Assembly: GCF_000613445.1 (NCBI RefSeq)
Contig: NZ_BAIZ01000009.1
Span: 1 to 64,000, forward strand
Reading direction: 5' to 3'
Length of the DNA: 64,000 bases
Source of the DNA: Hoylesella shahii DSM 15611 = JCM 12083
Lineage (GTDB): Bacteria > Bacteroidota > Bacteroidia > Bacteroidales > Bacteroidaceae
Numbering within the stretch: the stretch's first letter is position 1; every line of letters starts with the position of its first letter. The notes under the pieces were generated by a model that did no database searches, was not told the DNA's origin, and saw only the letters and a program-made list of their open reading frames with translations. Made by a program: the position numbers and the translations under genes. Below, piece by piece: positions 10,660 through 21,507 of the stretch.

Positions 10660-12350
10660 TTACCAGCCTGGGTTTTGGGTTAGATTGCTGAGTGTTATCT
10701 GGCCCGTTGGTATGGGGTAGAAGTAGTATTTCTTATCGAAACGGCGTACTTGGTTGAGTGTGTTCGAACCAATCATATATCCATTGCTGTTTACATCCAC
10801 TTCGGGGTTGGGCACATTGCTAATGTTAGCGCCAAGATAAACGTTAGGATGTTGTTCCGAGTCGATGAGATGCAGTTGATGCCAGCGTATCAAATCCCAG
10901 TAACGAGTCCAGTTATCGAACATCAATTCACATCTGCGTGCGCGTCTTATTTCCCACAACAGGTTGCTAACGCCCATGTTATTGGCGGGGTCGGCAGCAG
11001 GTGCGAGTTGTATTCCTGGCAATCCGGCACGTATTTGCAGCTTGTTAATGCTGTTATCAAGGTCGGTTTGCGTGATTGTTCCTAGTTCGGCTTTAGCTTC
11101 GGCATAGTCTAAGTACACCACAGATAGCCAGAAAATGGGGCAATCGGTGTATTGACGGTTATTGTTATTGCGTTCGTCGATGGTTAGTTCAGTGGTGTTG
11201 TCGTATTTAGAAACAGCATAACCAGTGGTTGAAGTAAAGGCATGAGTTCCTGCACGTTGATAAGCATGACCTTTAAAAGCCAGCACGGGGTCGATGGTTT
11301 CAGCCAATCGTTTGTCGCGAACGGCCAGTTGTGCCTCTATTCCATATTGGTTATTGGCGTTTAAAGTGGCAGCATCGTTGGTTGCCAAGCTTGTTGTAGC
11401 CTTTGGTTTGCCATCGAGAAAGAGGTAAGCATCGAATGCATCTTTGGTCATACCGTTTGTTCCACTCGTGTTCATTGTGTAATTAATGGTGGAGTGGGTT
11501 AGCTTACCTTTCGAGTAAGGCTTGTAGAAAATCATCTCAGGGTTTTTACTCAAGTCCGTTGAGTTGTAGTTGCCTTTATAGCTAGCGTTAAGATGATAAT
11601 CTTTAGTCATTAGTTTAGTGCAGGCATCGGCACATTCGTTCAAGAAGCGTTGTGCTCTTGTAAGGTCGGGACCTTTGCCAGCGTTGTCTGCTACTGTTCT
11701 ATATTTACAGTATGTGCCTTCGTATAAAGCCACGTCGGCTTTCATAGCCAAAGCCATATCGGCCGTAAATCTCTGCTTGTTTGTTTGCGTAATGTGTTCG
11801 GCCGCGTAGTTAAGGTCGTTCAGTACGCTATCCATCACCACGTCGCGATTTATTCTTGGACCGTATAGAATTTCCTCATCAGCGGTGTTTACCACAGTGT
11901 TGATAAAGGGCACATCACCATATTGGCGCACCAGCTGGTAGTAAGTCCAGGCTCTATTAAGCTTAGCGATGCCCTCATAGGTAGCTTTTGCGTCATAGCT
12001 TAGCGAAGATTTAGCCAGACCGGTGAGCACATAGTTGGCATGTCTCACGGTTTCGTAAGCAGATTTCCAGTCGGCCGACGAAGCAACAACATTGGTAAAA
12101 GTCCAGTTATTGTCGGTAAAGTCAACTTGGTCGTCGCTTAATGCCTTGAAATAAAACCATCCGTACGAACTTCCGTTGCCATAACTAGGTAGTTGTTTAA
12201 GAATGTATTGCACTGGTTATCCAGGTTATCTGTGTTGCTCCAATAAGCAGGAGTATTGGTGAAAGTATCGTCTGGGTGAATATCTAAGAAGCTATTGCAA
12301 CTAGTAAGCGCACCCATCATCATGATACTGCATATCAATATCTTTTTCAT
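10660..12350 (-). CDS. SusD/RagB-family outer-membrane lipoprotein (pair 2, one frameshift)
   Basis: About 563 residues after repair. It starts MKKILICSIMMMGALTSCNSF (lipobox Cys 18), then LDIHPDDTFTNTPAYW, typical of SusD. At about 12186 the frame breaks between NTFLNNYL and SYGNGSSYGWFYFKAL; one missing base explains it. Downstream are the family signatures YYQLVRQYGDVPF, LWEIRRARRCELMFDNWTRYWDLIRW and YFYPIPTGQI. It begins 29 bp after its SusC partner's stop, so the two are co-transcribed. It should act as the lid lipoprotein on the SusC barrel; ligand unknown. Confidence 0.9.
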
Positions 12351-15724: not shown

Positions 15725-17368
15725 AAGGACATTATTAGGTGGCTCCTTTGTAAAACCTTTTGGCGTTGTAATCTCTTGTGTGAGAGTGTTTTACGCTATT
15801 GGTAAGGCTCGCTTTAGTTGCCATTGTTAACTTAAATTGTTTAGAGTCTACAGCCATTTATCATCTTTTTTGGCCGCGACATTATTTTAGGTTTACGCAA
15901 ATTTACGAGTTTTTAATATACATAGACGTATTTTTGTGTTAAAAATAATTTATATCACAAGATTTAAGAGTTTAGCAATAAAAGGTTAATTGTTGTTTGT
16001 TTGCCATTTTTACACTATGTTTACGGGTTTAGTGTTTTGCAGAGTGTAAAAAGATGAGATTTTAAACAAAGTTTAGAATACGCTTATTAAATGTTTATTA
16101 GTGTGTCGGCTTAATGTTTGGCGTTGGTTTTTGCGATGCGTTTAGTGAAGCGTTTTATTTTTTCGGGTGGGTTGTTTCGTTAGCAAGTACAGCACATGCG
16201 TATATGTTTAAACGCCGTTTTAGTGCCTGACGAGCTGTTTACAGGTGCTATAAGCTGTTTAATGGCGCACTATCCAACGTTTTTTGGCCATGCTGAGTGG
16301 CTAGTTGCTGCATTTAATCTCCACGTAAATTCATGGGCGAAGAGTTATCCGCGAGCGTGTTTCTGGGCGTTTAATGGTTAAAAAGGGTGGGGCTTGATTT
16401 GTTAATGTGGTACGCAAACTTTACAAAATACACTCTTCTGTACAACCCTTTCTAGACGAAAAGGCTCGCTAAAACCTATATAAAACGCCCCAAAGACATA
16501 AAATTCACGACGTCAAACAATCAGTTTTTATCTCGTTTTGGGGCATTTACTATGCTTTTGCACTTTTTTTTGAGGAAAATTTGTGCTAAATGTGTGTCGC
16601 TCCGACAAGAAAATCGACGCTAAAAAGCACGAAAATGCAGTGCTATCTCTTGCAAAACGCAATGCTATCTCCTACAAAACGCAGTGCTATCTCCTGCAAA
16701 ACGCAGTGCTAACTCCTACAAAACGCAATTAAAATTGCTGTAAAAAGCGGCTTTAACTTGCGGTGGGAATTGGTAATAGCTTGATATATAGGTTGTTATT
16801 GTGTTTTTGATAAATTCCGACAGTCCACTTTTGGTTGAGCGCTTAATTACGCCTTTTTCTTCTATTTTTTGTTCAAAATAGGATGATTTGTGCGTTATTT
16901 GCTATAATTGTTTATAAATCAACGTGTTATAAACTTTCGAAATACGCGCGAAAATTCGGCCGATGCTCGGATTTTTCACACCGAAGGCACTCATAATGTT
17001 AAATTACGGTGGAAATATTTTACAATTTACGTGCAGCTTTGTTTTTCGCCCTTTGCTAGGATTACCTATTCTTATCAGCCCGTTATTGTTTAAGTTTCTT
17101 TAGTTTGCAGTTGAAAGACCTTGCCAGGTGTGCGATTATAGGTTTTGTGTTTGGTTTTATGTCCAATTTAATCGGTAGGGTTGTTTATTACAATCAAGGG
17201 ATGTGAGGAGGCAAAAGAGGAAAGGACGGTGCTAAGTGTTTGTGTTTGCCGCTGTTGTGTGTTGTTAATGGCAGAGCGTGGTGCTTAAACGGTAAGAAAG
17301 ATGCCCGCAAGTAAAGCCCTTTTGTGCGATTTTGCTTAGTGCTGAGCGAGCCTTTACTATGCAGGAAA
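15725..17368. other. 1.6-kb non-coding spacer
   Basis: No gene is supported; the few open frames are short and without motifs. It holds a possible susC promoter element at 15898-15905 (minus), an inverted repeat GCCCCAAA/TTTGGGGC (16487-16494 and 16537-16544) and the 22-bp tandem repeats at 16637-16724. The rest is AT-rich. An unusually large gap for this genome section. Confidence 0.6.
16637..16724. repeat. 22-bp tandem repeat, four units (locus A)
   Basis: Four exact-length units follow one another: GCAGTGCTATCTCTTGCAAAAC and three variants differing at one to three positions. The same 22-bp period and the core GCAAAACGCAGTGC recur at 27859-27968. There is no spacer between units, so this is not CRISPR. 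Confidence 0.85.
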
Positions 17369-17416
17369 AAAGAAAGCCCCATCTCCAGCGCTTAATGCTC
17401 TTGCTGGAGATGAGGC
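17369..17416 (-). terminator. Terminator after the small membrane protein
   Basis: Stem GCCTCATCTCCAGC/GCTGGAGATGGGGC on the minus strand (17403-17416 with 17376-17389), with one mismatch, followed by TTTCTTTTTT. It closes the 20167-17451 operon. Confidence 0.85.
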
Positions 17417-17450
17417 TTATTGTATATAGGAGTTAAACTCTAAGATGGGT

Positions 17451-17714
17451 TTAGTCTTCCATTCTTTGGGCCACTTTACCACTATTTGCATCAATTTTCT
17501 TTTTCGAACCGCCCGTGATGAACGGCACGAGAATGAGGCAGACGATGATAAGGAAGTCTACAATACCAACGGTGAGAATGATATTGGTGAGCGTTTGAGT
17601 AGTCATGTTCCAGCCTTCGGGTAGGGTTATGCCCCAAATCTTCATGATGGCGAAGAGAACAATGAGCACGATGAGCAAGACAACGCTGAGTGTTATGAAT
17701 TTGATATATTTCAT
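17451..17714 (-). CDS. Small two-helix membrane protein, unknown function
   Basis: 87 residues with two hydrophobic helices (about residues 5-28 and 41-67), a short loop between them and a charged C-terminal tail (GGSKKKIDANSGKVAQRMED). I recognise no family. It is the last gene of a minus-strand operon, 72 bp after the SPFH protein, with a strong terminator 35 bp beyond its stop. The partnership suggests a membrane anchor or accessory for the SPFH protein; this is inference. Confidence 0.7.
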   Translation of the reverse strand: MKYIKFITLSVVLLIVLIVLFAIMKIWGITLPEGWNMTTQTLTNIILTVGIVDFLIIVCLILVPFITGGSKKKIDANSGKVAQRMED

Positions 17715-17786
17715 TGTCTATATTGTTATTGAGTTGATAATTATTTAAAGCGAGCGTCTCAGGAGTTTGTTGAGACCTTTGAGCGA

Positions 17787-18794
17787 TTAAATCTCGTTGA
17801 GTAGTTCGCGTTTTTTAGCCTCGTAGTCGGCCTCGCTAATTACATTTTCGTCTCTAAGCAGTCGCAGGCGAGTCAGTCGGCGTGTGAGTTCGTCGGTGGG
17901 GTTGGATCGTTCGTTAATGATTTGGGCTGCAGCGCCCATTTGTTTACCCATTTCCAGTCCCACGCCCATCTGCACTCCAGTGCCAGCCATTCCTCCTTCG
18001 TTGCGTGCAGCGTCTCGCAGTGCGCGCAGTTTTTCAAGTTCGGCATAGGTAAGTCCGCCCTCTTTAGCAGCTTGCGAGTCGGCAGTAACGTCGGCAATTC
18101 GTCCGATACGTTCTTGCGTTTGCTCGTCGAACACCGTACCATCAACACGGAAGTCGGTTAGTGTGAAGCCCAGCTGTTCGGTATCTTGGTTGAGTAGGCT
18201 CGTCATTTGTAGTCCAATCTCGGTGAGATGTCCATCAATTTCGTTGTAGGCATATCCCAGTTTGTGAATGGAACTAATAATGTTTTGCGAAAGTCGGCCC
18301 AGCAGGAGTTCTCTAATTTCGTCGTTGCTAACCTCAGCTTTAGCACCAACGATGTTGATAAAGAAGTGTTCGATGTTGCTAATTTGGTAAGAGAAAGTTC
18401 CGTTAGCGCCCATTTCTACGGGCAGTTTATATTGTGGGTCGATAAACTTCACGGGCGAGGCTGTGCCCCAGTGTTGGTTGGTTACTTGAGCCTTGCGGAA
18501 GAAGAATATTTGCAATTTGTGTTCGCTTTCGAAGTTTTGGCGCAAGTTTACCAATGTGGTGAAGAAGGGGTGGTTGTCTGTTTTGAGGTTAAAGGTGCCA
18601 TCGTCGGTAAGAACGTCGGCCACTTTACCTTCGTAAACCAGCACGGCGCCTTGTCCTGGAGCCACAATTAGCTTGCTGGCGTTTTTTATCTCGTCGGTTT
18701 TAGATGGATATTTGTACCAGAGAAGGTGTTGCTTGTCGGCGTTCCATTGAATAACTGCCGACAATTGATTGCGAAAAATATTGGTTATGCCCAT
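17787..18794 (-). CDS. SPFH-domain protein with C-terminal SHOCT domain
   Basis: 335 residues. The first 270 or so match the SPFH group often annotated as virion core protein or YdjI-like (IQWNADKQHLLWYKYP, LIVAPGQGAVLVYEGKV, FFRKAQ, IRELLLGRLSQNIISSI). A glycine/methionine-rich linker follows, and the last 35 residues look like a SHOCT oligomerisation domain (LRLLRDENVISEADYEAKKRELL). SPFH proteins form ring-like membrane assemblies; the role of this subfamily is not established. Some relatives carry a zinc ribbon at the C-terminus. Here a zinc ribbon sits instead on the upstream gene product, ending 51 bp before this start. Confidence 0.85.
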   Translation of the reverse strand: MGITNIFRNQLSAVIQWNADKQHLLWYKYPSKTDEIKNASKLIVAPGQGAVLVYEGKVADVLTDDGTFNLKTDNHPFFTTLVNLRQNFESEHKLQIFFFRKAQVTNQHWGTASPVKFIDPQYKLPVEMGANGTFSYQISNIEHFFINIVGAKAEVSNDEIRELLLGRLSQNIISSIHKLGYAYNEIDGHLTEIGLQMTSLLNQDTEQLGFTLTDFRVDGTVFDEQTQERIGRIADVTADSQAAKEGGLTYAELEKLRALRDAARNEGGMAGTGVQMGVGLEMGKQMGAAAQIINERSNPTDELTRRLTRLRLLRDENVISEADYEAKKRELLNEI

Positions 18795-18845
18795 GATGTA
18801 TGTTTATATAAATATGAGTAACGTGAATGAGTTATTGATAGCGGT

Positions 18846-20167
18846 TTAGAACTCTCTTGTTGCTACGGTTTTTCCATTAAGTCCCAATAGCCACACTTTG
18901 TTATATCCGCATATGATAAAGCCTTGTGGTGAGTGTACCACATGTCCCTGTAAGGAGTAAAAATGATAATTTTCGGGCTCTTTCACCGACCACAAAGGTT
19001 TGGCTGTTGTGGCGTCAAGGAGTTGGTAAACATATTCGGCATCTTCAGATGCTGTGGATTTAAAGCGTATAAACACATGCGAATCGTTCGACCAGAGTAC
19101 GCTTGCAGAGAAGTAAGTTGCGTCGGGTGTGAAGTTTTCGTATTTAATAAGTCGTGCTCTTTCTTTGTCGAAAGTGCTGATGAAGGCCTTTACCGACCCT
19201 TCATTTCCTACGAATATACCCCATTTACGTCCAAAATCTCTGCACCAACCGAAGGACCAGCTATCAGATTTGGGGTATCCCACTTGCGTGTAATGCGAGT
19301 ATTTTATCAGTTGGATCTCTTGTTCGGGATAGTCGGTAGTGGTTCGTGAGAAATCGAAATCGGTTTTTACAACGGGGTTGGGCAGTGGTTTCTCGCAGGC
19401 TTCGAACAATTCCCGCTGTGTGTACACCTTATTAATAATAGGCAGGTAAAAGCGTTCTTTAGCCGTGTTGGTCATTATTTTGAAGCCATCCGAGTCGCCA
19501 CTGGATAAGAATTTGATGTTTGCAAATCCCGATTCCAGTTCAGGCACGTTTTTATAGTTTGTCATCTCTTTGAGGTCGAGCGTGCTTTTATCGATGGTGT
19601 ACCAGGTGCTATTGTTGAGAATGATGTTAACCGAGCCATCGTCGAAGGTTCTTCCCTCTACCTCTTTAAGTTTTTCTATAGGCAGTTGGGTTGTTTTGAT
19701 GGGTTCGTCCTTTTTCAAATCGTAGATGCGAATTTGGTTTTCGGTTATTTTTTTCGCGTAATCGCCTCTTGAGTATACGCCAAAAACAGCCACAACGGCG
19801 CGACCATCCTTTGTAACAAAGGGTACGAGTTTTTTAAAACTGAAGCTTTCTTCTATTTTAGGCTCATTATTCGCGGTGGAGTTAAAAGTAATAGGGTCGT
19901 CAGAGGATAAGAAGCTGAAGCAAGTAGAAATGACAAAGGGTATAATCATAAAGCCCAATATCGCCCCAATAATGGCAGATGCTTAGCGTTGAGGCCGTTA
20001 AGCAGGTTGTTTTCTGGGGCAATGTATCGGTGGTTGATGTTGATATCGTCGCTATCAAGGAAAAACTCTGTAGAGCATGCTTCACATTGGTAATAATCGG
20101 GACGCGTTTCTTTCACCTTTGTGCTTCCGCAATGCGGGCATTTTATAACTTTTATATGTTTACTCAT
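18846..20167 (-). CDS. Zinc-ribbon, membrane-anchored protein (one frameshift)
   Basis: About 440 residues once repaired. The N-terminus has a four-cysteine zinc ribbon (CPHCGS and CEACST). A hydrophobic helix follows, legible only if one T/A is restored at about 19984, giving ASAIIGAILGFMIIPFV. The remaining 350 residues contain repeated beta-strand-like segments (KPLWSVKEPENYHF, HVVHSPQGFIICGYNKVWLLG) suggesting a propeller-type fold, but I cannot name a family. It leads the operon with the SPFH-SHOCT protein. Function unknown. Without the repair it would be a 73-residue zinc-ribbon peptide plus a 370-residue membrane protein. Confidence 0.65.
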
Positions 20168-20629: not shown

Positions 20630-21507
20630 TTATCGCCTAGCGTCGAGTTGCTTTTTCAGCAGCTCAGGGATTTCGCTTGTTTCTCTAGCCACGGGAATAC
20701 CAGCAGCTTCGAAGGCGGCAACCTTTTCTTTAGCCGTGCCGCTACTACTAGAGATGATGGCTCCAGCGTGTCCCATTTGTTTGCCTTTAGGTGCTTCGCG
20801 CCCCGATATGAAAGCGGCAACGGGTTTAGTTACGTGAGCTTGATGTATTCGGCAGCTCTTTCTTCAGCGTCTCCGCCAATCTCGCCAATGATGGCAATGC
20901 TATCCGTTTCGGGGTCGTTTTGGAACATTTCGAGTAAGTCTTGGAAGTAAAGTCCCACGATGGGGTCTCCGCCAACGCCCACAGCAGTGCTTTGTCCCAT
21001 GCCCTTTTGGGTGAGGTTGTACACCACTTCGTAGGTTAGAGTGCCACTTCGGCTGATAACTCCAGTTCCACCTTTCTTAAAGATGTTAGTAGGCATGATG
21101 CCCACCATGCTTTCTTCGGGCGAAATAAGTCCGGGACAGTTGGGTCCGATAAGCTTAGCGCCCTTTTGTTGGATGTAGTTATAAGCCTGCACCACGTCGA
21201 GTGTGGGCACGCCTTCAGTGATACAGATGATGAGTTGAATGCCAGCATCGGCGGCTTCCATCATTGCGTCTTTGGCGAAAGCTGCGGGAACGAAGATTAC
21301 TGACGTGTTGGCTTGAGTGGCTTCGACGGCATCTTTCACGGTGTTGAACACGGGGATGCCATTAACTTCCTGTCCGGCTTTGCCTGGAGAAGTGCCACCA
21401 ACAACGTTAGTTCCATACGCTTTCATCTTGGTGGCATGAAAACCACCATCTCGGCCCGTGATACCTTGCACGATGAGCCTTGTATTTTTGTTGATTAGAA
21501 TACTCAT
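20630..21507 (-). CDS. sucD: Succinyl-CoA synthetase alpha subunit (one frameshift)
   Basis: 292 residues after repair, the usual length. SucD holds the CoA site and the phosphohistidine and makes or uses succinyl-CoA with SucC. N-terminal [34 protein letters not shown] and GEIGGDAEE are all present. At about 20840 one G is missing in the codon after YIK. The restored frame reads [20 protein letters not shown] followed by the catalytic MGHAGA and ends [10 protein letters not shown]. The catalytic His therefore lies beyond the break, so an unrepaired product would be dead. It starts 93 bp after sucC. In this kind of anaerobe it feeds succinate/propionate metabolism. Confidence 0.93.

Follow-up and report, generated by a model that had tools for sequence, protein, structure and literature searches.

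The window is a 64,000-nucleotide stretch of Hoylesella shahii DNA, and the locus described here lies on its minus strand. In the order of transcription, the ORF list gives a zinc-ribbon ORF (19946–20167, 73 residues, ribbon motif CPHC...CEAC), an ORF of 370 residues (18846–19958), the gene of an SPFH/Band_7_1 protein (17787–18794, 335 residues) and that of an 87-residue membrane protein with two hydrophobic helices (17451–17714), followed by a terminator-like hairpin and T-rich run (17366–17418). The first two ORFs overlap in different frames, and gaps of 51 and 72 bases follow the 370-residue ORF and the SPFH gene, respectively. The hairpin itself (17374–17418, directly 3′ of the last gene, with the T-rich run at 17366–17373) has 18 pairs, 16 of them in the outer stem, and folds at −29.9 kcal/mol (z −5.31; none of 200 shuffles was equally good). 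A separate terminator scan missed it because its loop is longer than that scan permits. A sigma-70 scan for an operon promoter yielded 6 sites against a shuffle mean of 8.1, which is no better than shuffles, and a motif scan of the 330 bases upstream of the operon found no TAnnTTTG promoter box. As far as sequence can tell, the gene arrangement and the hairpin are the layout of a single operon. In H. loescheii as in the window, a sucD-like and a susC-like gene (both named by eye) flank the locus.

The first-pass annotation had called a three-gene operon made up of a zinc-ribbon membrane protein, an SPFH-SHOCT protein and a small membrane protein. Its coordinates and gene types hold, with the qualification that the zinc-ribbon membrane protein occupies two frames in the window; most of that gene, moreover, encodes a probable beta-propeller that the annotation did not contain. 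In H. loescheii (G178 = L040), both window pieces (73 and 370 residues) correspond to one protein, 436 residues long, and the family profile matches these consecutively, with the ribbon ORF at positions 1–59 and the 370-residue ORF at positions 65–417. The intact relative comprises a zinc ribbon, one membrane helix and the probable beta-propeller, while in the window a frameshift separates the N-terminal piece, which bears the ribbon, from the C-terminal piece, which holds the rest of the membrane helix and the probable propeller domain. Of the 35 H. loescheii genes of at least 120 residues that have a window match with no less than 50% identity, 12 are broken up over two or more frames. Because these other genes are split too, the frameshift in the ribbon/propeller gene is very probably a sequence error of the assembly. 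The same count implies many indel errors, so that ORF-based readings of the window need care. Split genes elsewhere in the window include a sucD-like gene (20633–21507) and a susD-like gene (10663–12350; names by eye), and in the P. conceptionensis draft it is the SPFH gene that is split over two frames (L041:8001–9004).

Measured against H. loescheii, dN/dS is 0.11 for the ribbon piece, 0.10 for the SPFH gene, 0.21 for the small protein and about 0.2 for the downstream propeller piece, figures that are rough because synonymous sites are near saturation; the sucD-like control gives 0.03. By these estimates, every piece of the operon is under purifying selection.

The best Pfam match of the ribbon piece is Zn_ribbon_5 (E 4.8e-6, 26.7 bits against a cut-off of 29.3), its NCBIfam match to MJ0042_CXXC lies above that family's cut-off, and the four ribbon cysteines are at least 90% conserved in alignment A5. 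AlphaFold modelled the H. loescheii orthologue, at a mean pLDDT of 81.3, with the ribbon, a helix at residues 55–83 and an all-beta domain. VIA-align aligns this last domain with beta-propellers, at best with a Z of 10.1 and an rmsd of 6.2 over 263 residues; 81 of 981 chains reach a Z of at least 8, and the named proteins in these rows are largely propellers. Foldseek matches of the propeller model were weak (best E 1.6e-4, TM-scores of 0.14–0.28 on the query). In searches by sequence, the profile of the zinc-ribbon (ZnR)–propeller protein returned ribbon-type matches only among solved structures, and NCBIfam gave the propeller sub-threshold matches only, to the PA2928 family at E 0.05 (0.014 for the Alloprevotella homologue). 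Taking the model as a guide, a beta-propeller fold is probable for the C-terminal domain. The protein has one hydrophobic peak, and lysines plus arginines summed over 14 sequences number 33 before it versus 21 after it (1 before the helix and 2 after it in the H. loescheii protein itself). This modest bias mildly favours an orientation with the ribbon inside and the propeller in the periplasm. In several Prevotella, the ZnR-propeller gene is tandemly duplicated (L046, L050, L051, G253, G274).

The type of the second protein was called correctly at first pass: it matches Band_7_1 (PF13421) at 134.3 bits against a cut-off of 24 (E 5.9e-39). Its model has a mean pLDDT of 71.3 and a fold that matches stomatin, prohibitin, HflK/C and flotillin, and its profile found no match by sequence among solved structures. 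The SHOCT domain that had been placed on this protein is better described as a SHOCT-like tail (residues 306–332, about 17799–17879). The match to SHOCT (PF09851) is C-terminal and near full-length, yet scores 22.3 bits (E 1.1e-4), below the cut-off of 27; the model predicts helices in this region at residues 302–315 and 321–334, with a pLDDT of about 60–70. In a more distant homologue (L026), the SHOCT match reaches 38 bits. SHOCT is most commonly associated with band 7 domains of the Band_7_1 type, and the role of such tails is left open in the available portion of the source (PMC3581485). The window SPFH protein contains no cysteine and therefore carries no zinc ribbon. It has no predicted transmembrane (TM) helix, and since a hydrophobic peak is missing from 18 of 18 SPFH homologues, the protein would need an anchor. 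As far as the accessible text of a 2009 survey goes, only 2 of 12 SPFH subfamilies seem soluble, and no member is documented in the smaller subfamilies, the two soluble ones included (PMC2636767).

The 87-residue protein has hydrophobic peaks at residues 6–24 and 45–63, and its NCBIfam matches are sub-threshold only (glyco_rpt_poly, E 0.007; AmaP, E 0.032). Its homologues are found at the corresponding position in H. loescheii, P. conceptionensis and three Sphingobacterium loci; the C-terminal GKVAQR of the window protein recurs in the H. loescheii and S. puteale proteins and is absent from the other two Sphingobacterium proteins. This window-type protein occurs in 5 of 31 SPFH loci and, in a single-sequence search, in 2 of 251 family genomes. 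The small protein of the Prevotella type is 111–112 residues long and has three or four hydrophobic peaks where tested. A kinship between the 87-residue window protein and the 112-residue Prevotella protein found no support (hhalign probability 0.8%, window row excluded).

How firmly the genes are linked can be judged from the 31 loci, which were found among the named genomes by the SPFH sequence alone. At 12 of the 13 Bacteroidota loci the ZnR-propeller gene is adjacent or one gene away, and at the 13th (L057) the SPFH gene lies at a contig end; the profiles used were partly built from the same 31 loci, so counts over these loci show adjacency and not independent detection. The gene order of the window, with the two-helix protein, recurs in five loci, namely those of H. 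loescheii, P. conceptionensis and three Sphingobacterium. Seven Prevotella/Alloprevotella loci are reordered, with the SPFH gene followed by a small membrane protein and one or two ZnR-propeller genes; a MORN-like gene comes next in five of the seven, and the other two stop at a contig end. The product that follows the last ZnR-propeller gene at L045, L046, L048, L049 and L051 is a probably secreted MORN_2-like protein, whose MORN_2 Pfam match is sub-threshold in Alloprevotella; several MORN_2-like proteins have C-termini that resemble one another in the pattern LKVxKDGxIE.

Within a 200-genome sample of the genus, the ZnR-propeller profile A1 matched at E <1e-100 in 8 genomes and the SPFH profile in 35. 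All 8 ZnR-propeller genomes carry the SPFH gene on the same contig and strand, 84–357 bases away. The linkage is one-way: a full ZnR-propeller match is missing from 27 of the 35 genomes that are SPFH-positive, and in four of these 27 (G260, G263, G403, G425) the SPFH score is strong. Short matches to profile A1, which are mostly ribbon-only and are the sole matches in 28 of 36 genomes, were not counted as ZnR-propeller proteins. A single-protein search with the window propeller retrieved 3 of 251 family genomes and 5 of 200 genus genomes, fewer than profile A1 found. By this comparison of genomes, the SPFH and ribbon/propeller genes stay together in Prevotellaceae and Sphingobacteriaceae. The expectation of the first-pass annotation that all three genes would co-occur thus holds for these two, but the third is less constant and is replaced by another small protein in Prevotella.

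At 17 of 17 Chlorobiaceae loci (L052–L056, L058–L069), a Gly-rich Tim44-domain protein of the L054 type directly follows the SPFH gene (Tim44 E 2.9e-20 in L054); Pfam detects a C-terminal zinc ribbon of this protein in L054 alone, with a score under the cut-off, and inspection by eye shows one in a few others. No partner was assigned to the SPFH gene at the single Gracilibacteria locus (L070), where frames are broken. Of eight Band_7_1 loci in the family that are more distant (L019–L026), seven have a neighbour with a pair of CxxC motifs, adjacent or one gene away; the neighbour in L026 shows a single CxxC, and its second half is related (all by eye). By Pfam, the ribbon neighbours of L019, L022, L023 and L024 include one above a zinc-ribbon cut-off, with the others below. 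The tails of the distant SPFH proteins are GYF_2 in L022, L023 and L024 (Pfam) and in four more (by eye), and SHOCT in L026 (Pfam). L027–L030 are part of alignment A1 but were left out of the structure predictions.

Since linkage of the ribbon/propeller and SPFH genes is kept in relatives, it is fair to infer, as the first-pass annotation suggested, that the three products form one membrane complex. The reading that we prefer, and to which we give an even chance of being right, is that this complex is a PspA-free cousin of YdjGHI, with an anchored SPFH scaffold and a periplasmic propeller as its sensor. Judging from its fold, the cytoplasmic SPFH protein, which has no membrane helix, would assemble beneath the inner membrane into a ring or cage. 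Genetic linkage and the precedent of YdjG and YdjH suggest that the zinc-ribbon protein anchors it, with the ribbon in the cytoplasm, the single helix across the membrane and the propeller in the periplasm; on the same grounds, the small two-helix protein may be a second anchor. The propeller could sense or bind an envelope component, and the SPFH ring might then alter local membrane organisation or assembly. We infer both the formation of the complex and its role in stress, and the stress-related purpose that had been suggested for the set is drawn from analogy; the searches turned up no stress data. Counting against the scaffold reading, two of the four parts of a Bacillus-type scaffold (PspA and TPM) are missing, linkage of the SPFH and propeller genes runs one way only, the charge bias around the helix is modest, and the window and Prevotella types differ in the small protein and have opposite gene orders.

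More tentatively, and with somewhat less than even confidence, we propose a PspA-independent trans-envelope device in Bacteroidota, in which a periplasmic propeller is wired through a helix and a cytoplasmic ribbon to an SPFH cage, and in which the membrane partner can be swapped: a ribbon-propeller protein in Bacteroidota, a Tim44-type protein in Chlorobiaceae and the NTF2-like YdjG in Bacillus. If this is true, one SPFH core would be fitted with different outer or membrane-biogenesis domains, and the ribbon and the SHOCT tail would be exchangeable docking parts. The set is small and conserved and has one clear transmembrane partner, which makes it a testable unit for the anchoring and control of soluble-type SPFH proteins.

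The main rival of the scaffold reading is a role in the biogenesis or quality control of membrane proteins, which we consider unlikely though worth serious attention. Here the SPFH cage would enclose a patch of membrane while its partner aids insertion, folding or FtsH-type turnover, and stress sensing would play no part. The constant Tim44-domain partner at the 17 Chlorobiaceae loci points in this direction, as do the HflK/C proteins of the FtsH complex among the fold neighbours of the SPFH protein, and YidD stands beside the SPFH gene at the distant Band_7_1 locus L024 (42.5 bits against a cut-off of 27), with a YidD-like ORF in L026 recognised by eye only. However, the window-type operon is without a protease or insertase gene, the genome from which the window comes has YidD only once, on a contig other than that of the operon, and one YidD rather than two is also what most of the 35 genomes of the genus with an SPFH match show. 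Two YidD matches each, together with an SPFH match, were seen in G246, G363 and G413; more than one YidD and no SPFH match were seen in G384, G400, G401 and G423. At L024:2254–5109 and L026:4132–7063, a Band_7_1 protein with a GYF_2 or SHOCT tail, YidD and a ribbon-bearing protein are found together.

That the set is an anti-phage or mobile-element module, in line with the phage-related purpose floated at first pass, is highly unlikely. Its distribution is patchy, distant Band_7_1 relatives occur in phage and plasmid records, and the ribbon piece alone weakly matches PDC-S64 of PADLOC at E 1.2e-4; but the intact H. loescheii protein matches PDC-S64 only at E 0.013, and the window and H. loescheii share the flanking sucD-like and susC-like genes. 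The phage matches come from 7 of 50,697 records, all at 22–27% identity, and one scan of viral_contigs confirmed no relative. Distant SPFH matches occur in 20 of 72,556 plasmid records, all below 60% identity and those listed at 23–35%. Against PADLOC-DB, the ribbon piece gave eight weak matches, and the SPFH protein, the propeller piece and the small protein gave none at E up to 1; in PHROGs all matches were weak, the ribbon piece reaching E 4.6e-4 at best and the SPFH tail E 0.005, while the small protein matched a holin family at E 0.035. The suggestion of a phage-related role is thus not upheld.

The two frames seen in the window might mean that ribbon and propeller are made here as two distinct proteins, through a genuine or programmed frameshift, but this is hardly credible, as the gene runs unbroken in a single frame in H. 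loescheii, Sphingobacterium and Prevotella, splits of this kind affect so many of the matched H. loescheii genes, and the downstream piece retains its low dN/dS. A programmed frameshift was rejected on the strength of the single frame in relatives together with the 12 of 35 matched genes that are split in the window. The chance is very small that the genes are unrelated neighbours, kept together by accident or shared ancestry alone: surrounding genes are also syntenic in the window clade, but linkage of the SPFH and ribbon/propeller genes extends to Sphingobacterium and, in another order, to Prevotella and Alloprevotella.

At the level of fold, the window protein has SPFH architecture in common with the membrane cages of QmcA-YbbJ, HflK-HflC and stomatin. 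The SPFH proteins QmcA, HflK/HflC and stomatin carry a membrane anchor of their own, and their partners are of the NfeD type or FtsH. In the window operon there is no NfeD-type or FtsH gene.

A second point of comparison is offered by Band-7/flotillin operons, which, in the available portion of the source, include PspA, CesT/Tir and an AAA+ ATPase with beta-propeller repeats (PMC11237479). Like the window set, these operons, as described there, combine a Band-7 protein with a small multi-TM protein and a protein that bears a propeller. They differ in that the propeller is fused to the AAA+ ATPase, a TM segment is present in the Band-7 protein itself and the partner is of the YqiJ/YuaF type, whereas in the window set a zinc ribbon and a single TM helix precede the propeller. 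An archaeal SPFH protein with a coiled coil and a zinc ribbon is described in the accessible part of another paper (PMC10936438), and SPFH-SHOCT proteins pair Band_7_1 with SHOCT, much as the window protein pairs it with a SHOCT-like tail, with no zinc-ribbon propeller partner described in the portion of the source available (PMC3581485). SPFH-SHOCT proteins, Band-7/ribbon proteins and Band-7 operons with propeller ATPases are, on the available text of these sources, already in print (PMC3581485; PMC10936438; PMC11237479). Among the literature matches listed, no accessible text describes, for Bacteroidota without PspA, a soluble SPFH protein that has a zinc-ribbon/TM/propeller partner.

The closest known system to the window set is pspA-ydjGHI of B. 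subtilis, a species in which PF13421 also finds matches. In the accessible parts of the papers on this system, the Band-7 protein YdjI depends on the membrane proteins YdjG and YdjH to get to the membrane and PspA in turn depends on YdjI, both YdjI and PspA being delocalised when ydjG or ydjH is deleted (PMC8581546), and YdjG consists of two zinc ribbons, a YpeB/NTF2-like domain and a TM segment (PMC11237479). As far as these sources go, the window set resembles ydjGHI in its soluble Band-7 SPFH protein and two membrane proteins, one of them with a ribbon or ribbons and a TM segment (PMC8581546; PMC11237479; PMC9239133), and Band-7 genes adjoin pspA in phyla that include Bacteroidota (PMC9239133). 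Unlike pspA-ydjGHI, the window set has neither PspA nor a TPM/YdjH domain. PspA (PF04012) was found in none of 12 genomes, 11 of which carry the SPFH/propeller pair (control matches in 9 of 14), and TPM (PF04536, YdjH-type) was absent from 10 of 11 genomes, G000 included (control matches in 8 of 14), the sole match, in G015, lying on a different contig from the operon. Because PspA is missing in all 12 genomes and TPM in 10 of 11, we do not file the set in the PspA module; by analogy, it may work like the anchoring half of that module. The extra domain differs as well, being propeller-like in the window and, in the available description of YdjG, YpeB/NTF2-like (PMC11237479). Finally, the first-pass annotation was right that some relatives carry the ribbon on the SPFH protein itself: YdjI does so in the portions of both sources available (PMC8581546; PMC11237479), whereas the cysteine-free window SPFH protein ends in a SHOCT-like tail and leaves the ribbon to its neighbour. 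This exchange of a zinc ribbon in B. subtilis YdjI for a SHOCT-like tail in the window protein is a lead on the role of the SHOCT tail.
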